Source: Verrucomicrobiaceae bacterium
GTDB lineage: Bacteria > Verrucomicrobiota > Verrucomicrobiia > Verrucomicrobiales > Verrucomicrobiaceae
DNA: 64,000 nucleotides
Assembly: GCA_027486585.1 (NCBI GenBank)
Contig: JAIXOU010000100.1
Span: 248,001 to 312,000, forward strand
Direction: 5' to 3'
Within the stretch, counting starts at the first letter, position 1, and each line of letters starts with the position of its first letter. The position numbers and the translations under genes were made by a program. The notes beneath the pieces were generated by a model, which did no database searches, was not told where the DNA came from, and saw only the letters and a list, made by a program, of their open reading frames with translations. Positions 1-5,373 of the stretch are shown in pieces.

Positions 1-3000
1 CTTCTCGTGTGCCAGTCTGAGCAATTTTGAGCACGGTCAGAGCATCTTTATGACTGCGCGCTGCAATGCGAGCCAGCGTGGCATTGCTGGTGAGTCCGTT
101 CTCGATGTAGCTATCTTTGAAGACTTCTTGATGCCCGCCGAGGATATCGCCGAGATTGTAGGTGTCGGCGCGGTTTGCCAGCATGTCGGGCACCTGGAAT
201 TTGCCACCGACTTCGGTATAGGGATTGCCCGCCATCACCACAGCCACTTTGCGGCCGCGTAGGTCGTAGGTCTTTGCTTCGCCTTTGAAGACGCCTTCGA
301 TTTTGCGCGTGCCGTCGCACAGTGGGATGAACTTTTGCAAAAACTCGGGATTCGTATGCTGGATGTCATCGAGATAAATCATGACATTGTCACCCATCTC
401 AAAGGCGAGGTTCAGCTTCTCGATTTCTTCTCTCGCTGAGGCATTTCGTGCCTCACTTGGATCAAGCGATGTCACCTGATGACCCAATGCTGGCCCGTTG
501 ATCTTCACCAGCGTAATGCCGAGCCTACTGGCGATGTATTCCATCAGCGTCGTCTTGCCATAACCCGGTGGTGAGATGAGCAACAGCATGCCCATGCGAT
601 CCGTGCGAGTGTCCTTGCCTGCGGCACCGAGTTGCTTGGCCAAATTCGCGCCGATGAGCGGTAGATACACCTGATCGATCAGGCGGTTCCGCACAAACGA
701 ACTGAGCACGCCTGCCTTGAACTGATCCAGCCGCAGATCCTTCCTTCGCGCTTCCGCTAATGAGTGCTTCAGCTTTTGGAAGGCCGTAAAGGCAGGCACG
801 ACTTCGCTTTCATAGCTTTGCAGGCGTGTGGTGAACTCATGGTAATCGAGTTCCATCTTTGCCTCGCTGATTCGACCATGCGTGCCAGTGAAGCCGCTAA
901 TCGTCACGCGAGAGACAGGCTCTGTGGGCGTTGCGGCAGGTGATTGATCGTTGGTGACGACCATCGCCGCCGTTTCGATTAACACCCCACGATCCGCATT
1001 CGGATTCAGGGCCGTCAGCCACTCCAAGGCAATCTCAAAGGCCAGCAGCGGCTGTGCGGCGAGATCGCTCATCGTTGCTTCGAAGTCCTTAGTTGCCCGT
1101 TTAGCGGTCAGCTCCTTTCGGAATGATTTCAAAAGCTCCACAGCTGAGGCCGAACGCGTGAAGTAGGTCTTGGACTGCAATTCATCTAGCAAGCACGCAC
1201 TGATTTGGCGTGTGAAAGCTCGCGGGAGCGTCCTGGAGTGCGCCGGTCCTCCGGCGCTTTCGGATGTTCCACAGCCTGCGGAAAGCTCCAGAGGGCTGGA
1301 GCACTCCAAAACGCTGCCGCGCTGTTGCAGGCTCAAAAAGCTATCGACACGCTTCGTCAGTTCGTCATCGCTGCTTGCATTTGAGACACCCAGAAGCTCA
1401 TGCATTCGGCCTTTGGATTGCATCCGAGCTGCGAGAGCCTTTTTATCTGCATCTTCAGTCCAAGCATGCCAGAACAGCCGAGCATAACCGCGTGCGGCTG
1501 GTGAATGCCTCAGCAGACCAAGGGCAGCCTGCATCTCCCGCAGTGGCTTCAAAAGCAGCGAGGCATCGTGGTCATGCACGCCCTTGGTGTAGCCTTCATC
1601 ATAGCGTTGGGCAATGAAAGCAGACACATCGTCGCTACTAGTCTTCAGCATCTGCCACGCGAGATATTCAGCGCGATAAACCTGCTCATTCTCCGAGACG
1701 ACGGCTTGATCCCAGACACTGCGCTGGTTTTCCAGCTCGGCGTTCTCGACTTTCTCAAAGAAGCGCGTGCCGGTGAGGTGAAAGGCTAATCCGCCTTCAC
1801 GCGGCAAGATAGCCAGCTCAAGCGGCTGCTTGTTCACACTGAATTGATGCTGTCCGAGTTGGATCAAATCTCCGCCACCAACAAAGATCTCCGACTTATC
1901 GCGGATCTGCTTCAGCGAGTCTTGCTGCACGGTCTTCAATCGCGTTCCCAGTTCATCAGCCCGCACGCTGTCGCCGAGCTTGCGAAGTTCTTCGATGAGG
2001 TCGCGCAGCTTGGCTACCATGGCATCCGCAGCGAGCCAGGCGTGGACTTCCTCCGGCTTGGCAAAATTGGCCAAACGATTGCGAATGCTCGTCAGAATGC
2101 GCTCTGCGGACTGCCCAAGGCTGCCACAGCGGCGATTCAGTGCGTCGGTGAGGCTTTGACGACGAGATTCAAAGGCGGTCTGCACTTCCTCGCGCTTCTT
2201 GATCAACTCAGTAGCGTAGTCATCGAAGTCAGAGAACTTGGTCTCCATCTCCTCGATCTGCACCAGCACACGAGTGAGTGATTCATCACACTTTTCTGGC
2301 GTGGTGGCCACTTCGAGGTAGTTCAGCACGCTTTGACTGAGCAGGCTGAGCTGCGCCTGAAATTGCGCCGCACCTTCAGTCTTTGCGAGATCATTGCGGC
2401 GGTTCCTCAGAACACTGCGCACCTGATTGAGCTGTGCAAAGAGCGTGCTGATACCCTCGATGATGCGGGTAGTCTCCGTGGCATCTTGAATCTTTAGGCC
2501 GCTGACGATGGCGGTGAGCATCTCCAGTTCACTGCTGGATTTCGCTAGTGCGTCTTCGACTTCTTGAGCCTCGGTGACCTTGGCCAACGTCGGGACACGA
2601 GCCTGTTGTTCGCTGATTTGTTTTCGATACGGATCGAGCGCTTCAGGCTTGAGCAGGAAGGCCACGCACTTGGCGCTGAGCTTGTCCGCTCCCTCGGCCG
2701 CCGACTTGTCCATCTGGTCGATCACTGCCGCATCGGTGTAGCGCACATCGCGCAGGGCGATGATTTGACCACGCAGCTCACGGAGTGTGGTTAAGAGCTG
2801 CACAAAGCCGAGGATATCGCTCGGATCGGTGTTTGCCGCAGAGCCGAGCGCCTTGTGCGACTTTTCTTGCAGCGCTGTGGTTTGGTCCGTAGCCGTCTTG
2901 CGCATTCGGCGTACTTTTTCAAACTCACCCAGAGCCGCCTCTGCGGTCGTTTTGACCTCGGTGAGTGCCTCCTTGAGATTGTGCGCCTCTTCTTTGCCTA

Positions 3001-4429
3001 CCCAAAAGTAACTGTCGGAAATATCGCCGCAGGAGCGCACGAGTTCGACATAAAGACCGGAGAAGGAGTCGTCCTTTGCCAGCAAGGTGAGCACACCTCG
3101 GCACTCAGCCATGGCGCGGACGATTTCAGCGTTGCCGATCTTGCTGAGAAAGGTCTGGGATGCCTTGGCCTCGCTGATATCGGCGGTGAGAAACGGCGTT
3201 CGCCAGATCTGAATGACGTGGTGCTTGCGTGGCTCTGCGTCGGCGTCAAAGAGGACGAGTTCGCCCGTGGGGAAGAGGCTGAAGCCATGGCATGGCTGCG
3301 GCGTGGCGATGCTCTGCGTGATGAGATTGTAGCTAAGAAGCAGGTAGGAGCCGCTCTCGAGATGCGAGAATACAAACAGCGTGTCTTCACCATTCGCAGC
3401 CGAGATGCGCTTCTCGAAACGCATCGGTGGTAAGCCTGTATCGAAGCGGCGCACCTCGCCGGTTTGCAGAACATAACCGTGAGGAAAGAGGATGCCATGA
3501 TCGTCCGGCAACAGCACGCAGCTTTCAGCAATGCTATCAATGCGATGTGCCTCTCTCGTGCGTTCATTGAAGACGAGGTGACGCCAGGTCTTCTCCTGAT
3601 ACGGCAGCACCTTCATCAAGATGAGGTTGCCGACGATGGCGTAATGCACTTCGGCATCGTCGAGTGTCTGGTCTTTGTTTTCGACCAGTTCGTTGTAGAT
3701 GCCTCGACCCGTGGCCGTGTTGTTTTCGACTTTGACCGTGAGGTCGCCGCCGATGGTCTCGACAAAAACACGGTCTTCGATGCTGATGTGCGGATGCTCA
3801 CCGTGGCGATACATGTCGCGCGTAGCCTTCTTCCAGACGAACTCCTGCGGCGTGGGAAAAATGAACTCGTGGTCGCTGCGGTTGCCGAGGTATTTCAGCG
3901 TGCCTTTTTCATCATCGACGAGCCATTTGAATGTTTTGACCTCCGTCGCCCGCTGTCCCACCTGAAAGCCCATGTAGAGGTGCGGACCGATGCGGTGAAA
4001 CTTCAGGAAGGTCGCATGTTTGTAGTAGTTGTAGAGGTATGTGAAGTCCTCCGCGAACTGAGCATCGCGAAGGATGGTATCTTTGTTGGTATGGAAGCTG
4101 TGATCACCATCCTGATAGTCCACCACCGCGAAGACATCCTCGATCTTCATCGTCGTGCGCAGCCCGAGATGGACATTGTAGCCAAACAAAAAGCGCTTCG
4201 GTCCAATCGCCGCCATATCACGCGGCACGCAGTTGTTATCCGTCGTGAGGCGCGTCGTCGTCAGAAGCGCCGTCTCGATACCACCGAACTCAGCTTTTCG
4301 ATCGTTGTTCAGAAGATCCAGCCGACGCTGGAGTTCAGTGCCGTGCTTGTTCAAGCGCTGACGAATGACTTCGTAAGCGCCAGCTTCGAGCTGGGGCGAT
4401 GTCTGGAGTGATGGAAGCGTTTCGGCCAT
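1..4429 (-). CDS. Giant AAA-type 'DNA repair ATPase' (DUF3686-like), C-terminus outside window
   Basis: The frame opens at an ATG read from 4429 (MAETLPSLQ) and runs without a stop to base 1, giving 1476 residues; the C-terminus lies outside. Residues about 1-500 are a beta-rich region, and about 500-1030 is rich in charged helix with coiled-coil character. A P-loop AAA module begins near residue 1280: Walker A PPGYGKT with Lys about 1292, then Walker B-like MIYLDDIQ near 1350 and an NPYTE sensor-like segment. This architecture matches the conserved proteins automatically named 'DNA repair ATPase' in Verrucomicrobia, Planctomycetes and Streptomyces; their biochemical role is not established. 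The AAA part resembles MoxR-like remodellers. Oddity: residues about 1037-1070 are encoded by a dispersed palindrome at 1221-1321. Family call is fairly secure, function unknown. Confidence 0.85.
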   Translation of the reverse strand, partial: MAETLPSLQTSPQLEAGAYEVIRQRLNKHGTELQRRLDLLNNDRKAEFGGIETALLTTTRLTTDNNCVPRDMAAIGPKRFLFGYNVHLGLRTTMKIEDVFAVVDYQDGDHSFHTNKDTILRDAQFAEDFTYLYNYYKHATFLKFHRIGPHLYMGFQVGQRATEVKTFKWLVDDEKGTLKYLGNRSDHEFIFPTPQEFVWKKATRDMYRHGEHPHISIEDRVFVETIGGDLTVKVENNTATGRGIYNELVENKDQTLDDAEVHYAIVGNLILMKVLPYQEKTWRHLVFNERTREAHRIDSIAESCVLLPDDHGILFPHGYVLQTGEVRRFDTGLPPMRFEKRISAANGEDTLFVFSHLESGSYLLLSYNLITQSIATPQPCHGFSLFPTGELVLFDADAEPRKHHVIQIWRTPFLTADISEAKASQTFLSKIGNAEIVRAMAECRGVLTLLAKDDSFSGLYVELVRSCGDISDSYFWVGKEEAHNLKEALTEVKTTAEAALGEFEKVRRMRKTATDQTTALQEKSHKALGSAANTDPSDILGFVQLLTTLRELRGQIIALRDVRYTDAAVIDQMDKSAAEGADKLSAKCVAFLLKPEALDPYRKQISEQQARVPTLAKVTEAQEVEDALAKSSSELEMLTAIVSGLKIQDATETTRIIEGISTLFAQLNQVRSVLRNRRNDLAKTEGAAQFQAQLSLLSQSVLNYLEVATTPEKCDESLTRVLVQIEEMETKFSDFDDYATELIKKREEVQTAFESRRQSLTDALNRRCGSLGQSAERILTSIRNRLANFAKPEEVHAWLAADAMVAKLRDLIEELRKLGDSVRADELGTRLKTVQQDSLKQIRDKSEIFVGGGDLIQLGQHQFSVNKQPLELAILPREGGLAFHLTGTRFFEKVENAELENQRSVWDQAVVSENEQVYRAEYLAWQMLKTSSDDVSAFIAQRYDEGYTKGVHDHDASLLLKPLREMQAALGLLRHSPAARGYARLFWHAWTEDADKKALAARMQSKGRMHELLGVSNASSDDELTKRVDSFLSLQQRGSVLECSSPLELSAGCGTSESAGGPAHSRTLPRAFTRQISACLLDELQSKTYFTRSASAVELLKSFRKELTAKRATKDFEATMSDLAAQPLLAFEIALEWLTALNPNADRGVLIETAAMVVTNDQSPAATPTEPVSRVTISGFTGTHGRISEAKMELDYHEFTTRLQSYESEVVPAFTAFQKLKHSLAEARRKDLRLDQFKAGVLSSFVRNRLIDQVYLPLIGANLAKQLGAAGKDTRTDRMGMLLLISPPGYGKTTLMEYIASRLGITLVKINGPALGHQVTSLDPSEARNASAREEIEKLNLAFEMGDNVMIYLDDIQHTNPEFLQKFIPLCDGTRKIEGVFKGEAKTYDLRGRKVAVVMAGNPYTEVGGKFQVPDMLANRADTYNLGDILGGHQEVFKDSYIENGLTSNATLARIAARSHKDALTVLKIAQTGTRE
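1221..1321. repeat. REP-like long imperfect palindrome inside the ATPase gene
   Basis: Two 41-base arms, 1221-1261 and 1281-1321, are inverted copies with about eight mismatches, separated by a 19-base loop. The left arm begins CGCGGGAGCGTCCTGGAG and the right arm ends CTCCAAAACGCTGCCGCG. It could fold into one long hairpin. It is read in frame by the minus-strand ATPase gene with no stop, adding about 34 residues rich in Ser, Gly, Cys and Pro that look unlike the flanking helical sequence. I recall similar GC-rich palindromes as dispersed intergenic repeats in Verrucomicrobia; that link is from memory and not verified here. Confidence 0.8.
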
Positions 4430-4437
4430 TAGGTAAT

Positions 4438-4593
4438 GGTATAAAGTTGCGGAAGCCCGTCGGGGTTTGGATTCATTGTGTCCCGACGGGACACCGTATC
4501 ATAGCGAAGGGTTGCGGCGAAGCCGCTACCCTGGAACGGGTTGCCGACGTCCATTGATTTTTGGGTGGAACCCCAACGGGGTTCCGTATCGGC
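4438..4593. repeat. REP-like hairpin array, left side of the RAYT gene
   Basis: Three compact hairpins lie between the ATPase start and the transposase gene: 4478-4494 (GTGTCCCG/CGGGACAC), 4508-4532 (AGGGTTGCGGC/GCCGCTACCCT, one mismatch) and 4567-4585 (GGAACCCC-AAC-GGGGTTCC). The first is followed by CCGTATCATAGCGAAGGG, a tail that recurs on the right side. The segment 4568-4593 is repeated in inverted orientation at 5117-5142 with one mismatch. At the outer edge, 4438-4446 (GGTATAAAG) matches the reverse complement of 5365-5373 at 8 of 9 positions, so the cassette may span 4438-5373. Confidence 0.75.
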
Positions 4594-4641
4594 TTCGCGG
4601 ATTTGCGCTTGCGATTTAGACGAAATGTCGAACGCTTCTTT

Positions 4642-5097
4642 ATGCCTCAATCGCTTGCCAACATGATCCTGCATCTCGTGTTCTCGACCAAGGACCGCGA
4701 GCCGTGGTTTACGGATACGGAGAAGATGAATGCTATGCACGGCTACCTCGGCGGCATTTCGAAGAAACTGGAATGTCCGACCATCGCCATAGGCGGTGTG
4801 GCTGATCACGTTCATATCTTGGCACGAATGAATCGCACGATGTCGTTGGCGGATTGGGTGAAGGAAATGAAACGAGCCAGCACTGTCTGGATTCGTGAGG
4901 AGTGGTCGGAGTTTGCCACGTTTCATTGGCAGGCGGGTTACGGCGCTTTTTCGGTGAGCCAATCGAACACGGATGCCGTGGTCGAGTATGTGCGGAATCA
5001 AGCCGAGCATCATCGGACAAAGTCCTTTCAGGATGAATACCGCGTGATGTTGCGCAAACATGGCATCGAATGGGATGAACGATATGTCTGGGATTGA
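4642..5097 (+). CDS. REP-associated tyrosine transposase (RAYT, IS200/IS605 Y1 family)
   Basis: A 151-residue protein starting at the ATG for MPQSLANMILH, which fits the usual N-terminus of Y1 transposases; earlier in-frame starts lie inside the flanking hairpins. Visible family marks are the HVHIL metal-binding HUH motif near residue 56 and a downstream helix with VEYVRNQAEHH that carries the candidate catalytic Tyr. The length matches stand-alone RAYT/Y1 proteins (about 140-180 residues). Such enzymes nick single-stranded DNA at structured ends and are thought to spread REP hairpins. The gene sits alone between inverted REP-like arrays and appears intact. Family call is strong; whether it is still active is unknown. 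Confidence 0.88.
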   Translation: MPQSLANMILHLVFSTKDREPWFTDTEKMNAMHGYLGGISKKLECPTIAIGGVADHVHILARMNRTMSLADWVKEMKRASTVWIREEWSEFATFHWQAGYGAFSVSQSNTDAVVEYVRNQAEHHRTKSFQDEYRVMLRKHGIEWDERYVWD

Positions 5098-5116
5098 GGC
5101 TCGTTTGTTTTGGTAA

Positions 5117-5373
5117 GCCGATGCGGAACCCCGTTGGGGTTCGGTAAGATGAAACATGGGGTGGTTTCCGGCATTCCAGGGAAGCCTCGCTATGGTTCGG
5201 CATCCCTTCGCTATGGTGCGGAAGCCCTTTGGGCTTCGAAATCCCCGTGTGCCAAAGGCACACCGCATCATAGCGAAGGGTTGGTGAGCCTGGGCGAACC
5301 TACCCTGGATGACCGAGCGACCCGCCCGCCCCCGAAAACAGGGAACCCCAACGGGGTTCCGTATCTTTATAAC
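5117..5373. repeat. REP-like hairpin array, right side of the RAYT gene
   Basis: Several hairpins follow the transposase stop: 5125-5142 (GGAACCCC-GTT-GGGGTTC), 5221-5237 (GAAGCCC-TTT-GGGCTTC), 5247-5263 (GTGTGCC-AAA-GGCACAC), 5277-5306 (AGGGTTGGT...ACCTACCCT, one mismatch) and 5342-5360 (GGAACCCC-AAC-GGGGTTCC). The stems differ in sequence but remain paired, and several are followed by CCGTATC or CCGCATC and TAGCGAAGGG. A short direct repeat TCGCTATGGT also occurs twice near 5188-5218. The array ends just before the stop of the flotillin gene at 5382. Confidence 0.75.

Follow-up and report, generated by a model that had tools for sequence, protein, structure and literature searches.

The stretch of DNA analysed here (hereafter the window, 64,000 nucleotides) belongs to the genome of a Verrucomicrobiaceae bacterium and opens with a large minus-strand gene (2-4429), assigned by Pfam to DUF3686, DUF7902 and an AAA ATPase, which runs off the window. 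Within this gene, at 1221-1321, lies a REPIN-like palindromic element, here named family A, which has no strand assigned and consists of two inverted units. The first unit (1221-1261, plus strand) reads CGCGGGAGCGTCCT-GGAG-T-GCGCCGG-TCCT-CCGGCGC-TTTC, with its GGAG tag at 1235-1238 and its stem at 1240-1246 / 1251-1257, and the second (1281-1321, minus strand) reads CGCGGCAGCGTTTT-GGAG-T-GCTCCAG-CCCT-CTGGAGC-TTTC. On the minus strand, the interval 1220-1321 supplies 34 codons of the ATPase (residues 1037-1070), as judged from the open frame, its translation and the comparison of orthologues. Two overlapping open reading frames (1170-1487 and 1264-1617) were rejected as genes, being a consequence of the element staying open in most frames. 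The ATPase gene is adjoined by a plus-strand Y1_Tnp (RAYT/IS200-like) transposase gene (4642-5097), recognized by Pfam, whose flanks lack a family-A unit. According to the repeat listing, other palindromes, of the GGAACCCC..GGGGTTCC type, lie on one side of it (4448-4595) and matching ones on the other (5115-5365), neither group with a strand assigned. With a different palindrome family (GGAACCCCAACGGGGTTCC) on both sides, this gene forms a REPtron-like unit of its own.

The earlier note on this DNA had described two 41-base inverted arms around a 19-base spacer, and its coordinates are exact: 33 of the 41 positions of 1221-1261 agree with 1281-1321 once the latter is reverse-complemented. This is the top 41-nt inverted repeat in the 64-kb window when spacers of 3-60 are considered; five length-matched first-order Markov sequences gave 24-27 matches, and the binomial expectation is about 7e-7. 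A profile scan of the window for family-A units retrieved only these two. For the family as a whole, a set of 84 copies was assembled from L001, L002, L003, L063 and 80 fetched regions, the latter being the best-ranked among the matches listed for the 34-residue peptide, with contig-end copies and copies already in the set omitted. Stacking 83 of these copies gave a length of 101 bp from CGCG to CGCG, with edges sharp to about one base and nearly flat flanks. The unit follows the layout CGCG-NN-AGCGTYYT-GGAG-T-7-bp stem-4-nt loop-stem-TTT, which is unchanged when the stems vary in pairs (GCTCCAG/CTGGAGC, GCGCCGG/CCGGCGC, GCGCTGG/CCAGCGC). In the six frames, 81, 61, 72, 73, 80 and 78 of the 84 copies are free of stops. 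Since the arms are inverted and in register, frames +0 and -1 yield similar peptides (R-x-SVLEC...TLxR) whichever way the element lies. At four separate loci, namely L004 (C137 of the window's own genome), L148 and L389 (G012), and L209 (G029), family-A units also carry another repeated stretch of about 60 nt (ACCGGAGCGCAGCGGAGATAG...), always immediately following the TGGA of the tag; it is either a site-specific nested insertion or a variant unit.

Dispersal of the element, which had earlier been only inferred, was found when the genome was searched for the 101-base unit. Family A is present at ten loci of this 6.5-Mb genome, the window copy included, the nine others being at C147, C92, C137, C68, C41, C33 (two), C82 and C83; the C137 and C68 copies have diverged (84% and 81% over part). 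The units are single at C82, tail to tail at C83 and separated by longer spacers at C33 and C41. The pattern GGAGTGC-N14-26-GCTTTC occurs 16 times in this genome versus 2 times for the reversed control, and 12 of the 16 matches are hairpin units while four (C32, C39, C67, C131) are not. Across the Prosthecobacter/Brevifollis-like genus, 38 of 48 genomes match the 101-bp DNA wholly or partly (E <= 1e-6), and the 34-residue peptide is matched in at least 34 of the 48 (E <= 0.001). Order-wide, the DNA is matched in 46 of 239 genomes, eight of them outside the genus (four in the same family and four in other families). Family-A copies were also seen at equal or nearly equal distance from one gene in six genomes (L143, L145, L149, L153, L155 and L183), which is an intergenic site occupied across species.

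In the host gene, the minus-strand frame runs through the element without an internal stop, over 1476 aa in the window and 1714 aa in the contig, and residues 1037-1070 are encoded by the element (RGSVLECSSPLELSAGCGTSESAGGPAHSRTLPR), in line with the claim that the palindrome keeps the frame open and adds these residues. A scan of 35 genus genomes gave an ATPase match in 21, with the site covered in 18. The full element was found at the same codon in two of these 18, namely the genome of the window (G000) and G001 (JAIXYN010000020.1, by coordinates), while G005 (by coordinates Brevifollis gellanilyticus NBRC 108608) carries, in frame, one unit with both sides of a stem pair changed and a degraded second half. 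The loop of G029 holds a different palindrome pair, GGATGCCCTCATCCGC and GCGGACGAGGGCGTCCGC. No element was recognised in 14 of the 18 orthologues, G004 having a 6-bp hairpin there, and three more named records (L253, L256, L264) also lack it. The nearest named orthologue records are from Prosthecobacter, Brevifollis, and Verrucomicrobiaceae or Verrucomicrobia MAGs, with one labelled Akkermansiaceae. The corresponding segment measures 255 nt in G000 and G001 versus 159 nt in the nearest empty group, a difference of +96 nt that is five below the element length. The alignment thus bears out the suspicion of an insertion, in a loop of variable length; in what was searched, no distant orthologue had the same residues without the palindrome, and further copies of the repeat exist in the genome.

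The position of the insert was also examined in a fold model of ATPase residues 900-1230, built from 60 aligned sequences (pLDDT 88, pTM 0.84). The modelled insert (138-171 of the fragment) sits in a loop between helices 123-139 and 171-186, which agrees with the earlier description of an otherwise helical region. Most of it is held by blocks 141-150, 151-160 and 161-170, with pLDDT of 54, 48 and 58, a low confidence that is partly expected because few aligned rows contain the insert. Judging from this model, it is probably a disordered bulge of 34 residues. A sequence search of the PDB with the ATPase returned weak AAA and RuvB matches only. We conclude that the element was truly inserted in the ATPase, into a loop that lies between two helices and varies in length.

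In-frame insertion has been tolerated many times, the window copy being one example. An open frame of at least 85 aa on both sides of the element was found at 18 of the 80 fetched loci, while 61 of the 80 copies are without one. Pfam was run on eight of the 18 open-frame loci and on two genes of the window's own genome. Coding frames are supported for at least ten of the 80 copies, distributed over five genes (seven read in +0/-1 and three in -0), and nine open-frame loci are further candidates. Family A is in frame in three genes of the own genome and in five genes of the sister species. The element lies inside the SNF2 domain of an SNF2 helicase in G029 and G068, and inside the HHH_6 match of DNA polymerase III alpha in G068. 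In BlaR1/M56 proteins, the insert is within the Pfam match in G008, while in G011 and G029 the match starts at or just before the insert end; the M56 protein of G068 also carries the element, as seen from the site comparison. An ADH plus GFO/IDH protein of G011 (L138) has the insert between domains, and the C147 and C83 copies of the own genome are in DUF7133-cytochrome c proteins. L141 gave no Pfam match, but its counterpart L142, 92% identical to it, shares the insert. At L017 (G000:C83:11176-11278), tail-to-tail units were observed open in frame in a DUF7133/HEAT/cytochrome c gene. When the SNF2 protein was compared with the solved structure 1z63, the match split at query residues 466 and 498 while the chain went from 80 to 83, and therefore the insert expands a very short turn. 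This turn follows what we take to be the Walker A helix.

The distribution of the ATPase insert over the genus is difficult to explain by descent alone. When the loop is left out of the tree, G000 and G001 group in separate supported clades (99/98 and 99/94), with G001 branching from within a set of species that lack the element. Between their copies, 2 of 79 family-invariant and 10 of 23 family-variable positions are different, compared with mean differences of 2.7 and 11.6 for random pairs of family-A copies; the two therefore look like two draws from a mobile population, or like copies homogenised with it. In the surrounding coding sequence, by contrast, 21 of 41 and 28 of 39 fourfold-degenerate codons differ in the 300 nt on either side and 60 of 133 further right (the left-far window, 300-1200 nt from the element, was excluded owing to an indel that puts it out of register). 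A single ancestral insertion without further events is hard to reconcile with this tree and the preserved sequence: the two copies are better preserved than one old neutral insertion would allow, so that recurrence or homogenisation must be added.

Other loops give a similar picture. The palindrome pattern seen in the ATPase loop of G029 occurs five times in that genome (two of them being the ATPase site), 11 times in G011, six times in G068 and once in G016, and was found neither in the other six of the ten genomes searched nor in the reversed control. At the SNF2 site, 29 of 30 loci gave the turn (L378 did not). The loop holds family A in G068 and G029, single family-B hairpins in G006, G011, G027 and G033 (perfect) and in G016 and G026 (imperfect), a similar but degraded stretch in G007 that was scored as family B in the tree, a GTAG-tagged REP hairpin in G008 and an insert without a perfect hairpin in G015. 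The other 18 loci have no insert, G000 and G061 showing an incidental hairpin of native sequence. Allowing up to three mismatches, the GTAG hairpin recurs twice more in G008, twice in G011 and once in G015, the other copies having a paired stem change, and the reversed control gave no match. In a quick tree, family A at this site requires at least two changes over the starred branches, and the G029 copy is nested among family-B carriers. The M56 site, covered in 13 of 18 matched genomes, carries the element in one orientation in G008 and in the opposite one in G011, G029 and G068, with degraded copies in G012 and G001 and none in seven genomes. Either separate arrivals or inversion in place can produce opposite orientations, and the presence of different families in one loop is a firmer sign of repeated arrival.

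We are thus inclined to add to our explanation that REPs return to the same protein loops, the G000 and G001 copies being separate events, either because such loops are tolerant or because insertion is favoured where an older REP or its footprint already lies. The separate clades, copies differing as random pairs do, the other palindrome family in the G029 loop with three more matches elsewhere in that genome, the four kinds of insert in the SNF2 loop, the changes required there by family A and the two M56 orientations all point in this direction. However, survivorship in a tolerant loop could alone produce the same picture, and in-place inversion of a palindromic element could yield both M56 orientations. 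An old insertion followed by many losses, with gene conversion between copies, could also account for the ATPase site. In this respect, four of six close relatives of G001 have LPxA, and two have PPQA, in place of the LPRA with which the element would end, and G021 shows a full match to the last 11 nt of the element; these observations, made by eye, may represent a footprint or chance. A stronger version, that REPs home to REP-marked sites or footprints, so that a loop once struck becomes a heritable docking site at which families replace one another, seems to us a speculative and rather unlikely extension. If it were true, helicases, membrane proteases and ATPases would have the same loop rewritten again and again.

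Regarding classification, family A is a GGAG-tagged REPIN-like doublet. It resembles the REPINs and RAYTs of Bertels and Rainey (2011, PMC3116915) in having two inverted REP units able to form a hairpin, a short spacer, dispersed copies in one genome and a non-autonomous nature, and in that Y1 genes of the genus bear hairpins of similar layout. It differs in the tag (GGAG instead of GTAG), in that no cognate RAYT was found in the Y1 loci scanned, and in that REPINs are described there from extragenic space, whereas family A is partly inside genes, including the window copy and the supported coding copies. The CGTC REPs, defined in Di Nocera (2013, PMC3733652) by a CGTC tag that ends an 8-9 bp stem with mostly an AT-pair start and a CCA tail, were rejected, since in family A a CGTC (often CGTT) stands seven bases away from a 7-bp GC-rich stem. 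Assignment to the GTAG REPs was rejected as well, as most units have GGAG, a tag absent from those given there (GYAG, GYRG, GTRG, GTMG, GTGG). The same source reports intragenic GTAG and CGTC REPs, including in Opitutus terrae of the Verrucomicrobia, and REPs at about the same site in recB of two Xanthomonas species. Our family is like these in forming in-frame REP dimers, there commonly of 20-30 residues and also in replication and repair genes, but it has another tag and belongs to another family, and here different families share one loop across one genus. The Rickettsia palindromic elements (PMC10969869) likewise occur as in-frame insertions in genes of unrelated kinds, each giving a characteristic peptide; compared by description rather than by sequence, they measure about 150 bp as opposed to 101 bp. 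The expectation that REPs avoid coding sequence therefore stands as a trend, but not as a rule, given the intragenic REPs and in-frame Rickettsia elements that these two papers report (PMC3733652, PMC10969869).

The long inverted ends and mostly fixed length of family A are also what a MITE of a DDE insertion sequence would show. Single units, tail-to-tail units and longer spacers at C82, C83, C33 and C41 do not fit such an origin, and target duplications are unconvincing: over 64 border offsets, the maxima were 12 of 83 copies for 2 bp, eight for 3 bp and three for 4 bp. For 2-bp duplications, one or two offsets exceeded all 20 shuffles (best 10 versus at most 7), a result uncorrected for the number of offsets tried. 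A DDE-type MITE was accordingly rejected, and we regard it as improbable.

As for the mobiliser, the Y1 gene at 4642-5097 was rejected as that of family A, since no family-A unit lies beside it and its flanks hold another palindrome. Y1 genes number 14 in this genome and 51 in eight relatives (E <= 1e-8), 30 of the latter being given loci, and 20 regions were fetched. Three or more GGAG hairpins were present in six of these 20 regions (four in L336, 13 in L341, three in L342, five in L343, seven in L344 and four in L351) and one each in L338 and L339; none occurred in twelve, which include all three regions of this genome. One spacer base and a 7-bp stem are combined with 4-nt loops in L336 and L351 and with 3-nt loops in L341, L342 and L344, and the L343 hairpins lack the spacer base. 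In L341 (G001) and in L344 and L343 (G011), the Y1 genes were observed inside arrays of GGAG hairpins, the L341 orientations differing in their stems. When the perfect 7-bp hairpins of 50 non-overlapping Y1 loci were sorted by the tag that stands one base before them, GGAG ranked first (39 of 422, in nine loci only) and CCAG second (22); GGAG likewise ranked first in the flanks of 80 elements (11 of 158). Its hairpins are about four times as dense at Y1 loci as in element flanks (0.20 versus 0.05 per kb), but their share among tags is similar (9% versus 7%). Among the Y1 loci scanned, which cover some of the Y1 matches, no Y1 gene had whole family-A units alongside; two partial matches (model positions 1-21 of 43) occurred in L236 and L238, and none in the 20 fetched regions. 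Mobilisation by a RAYT is therefore inferred from layout, in that GGAG hairpins of the same layout beside some Y1 genes of the genus suggest it.

The earlier note had regarded the palindrome as domesticated, possibly as a linker, or else as tolerated after insertion. Retention of the 34-residue peptide as a help to the ATPase, for example as a spacer, could be argued from its presence at the same codon in two species and from the in-frame half retained by Brevifollis gellanilyticus. However, the peptide is simply what the element encodes, since the C147 copy, in an unrelated gene, specifies one 94% identical to it; the SNF2 and pol III copies are read in another frame, the model leaves the insert unstructured, one orthologue has a decayed half and 14 of 18 have no recognised insert. 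We thus consider domestication very improbable, and the data fit tolerance. An assembly or sequencing artefact, which might be suspected because the genome is in 147 contigs and many records of relatives are MAGs, hardly deserves credence given the insert at the same codon of G001 and the decayed half there in Brevifollis gellanilyticus NBRC 108608.

Taken together, we hold with good confidence that a non-autonomous REPIN-like doublet, probably Y1-mobilised in trans, landed in a loop of the ATPase and that the frame was tolerated. According to this scheme, family A would be a REP doublet whose units each combine a GGAG tag with a single spacer base, a stem of 7 bp and a loop of 4 nt, spreading through the genomes of the genus, probably by means of a Y1 (RAYT-like) transposase acting in trans. 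It would have landed in the DUF3686/AAA ATPase, in a variable loop flanked by two helices, where the host frame presumably survived because the element is almost stop-free in every frame and the net length change is a multiple of three. If translated in the cell, the outcome would probably be a disordered 34-residue bulge, presumably of no benefit to the host.

Elements of this kind are already known, namely as intragenic REPs and as Rickettsia palindromic elements (PMC3733652, PMC10969869). As far as open-access literature searches go, two things are new, a REP family with a GGAG tag in this genus and the occupation of the same protein loops by different REP families. In that literature, no paper was found that joins a GGAG tag with RAYT and REP, nor any on Opitutus and repetitive extragenic palindromic sequences or on same-position insertion; for REPINs in Verrucomicrobia only PMC3733652 was relevant by title, and for palindromic repeats in Prosthecobacter none. 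In-frame palindromic elements were known earlier from Rickettsia and some REP-rich genomes. Here, one genus displays filled, half-decayed and empty states of single sites, as well as different REP families at one codon, and thus two questions become testable, namely whether REPs select where they insert and whether such inserts ever turn into useful parts of proteins.
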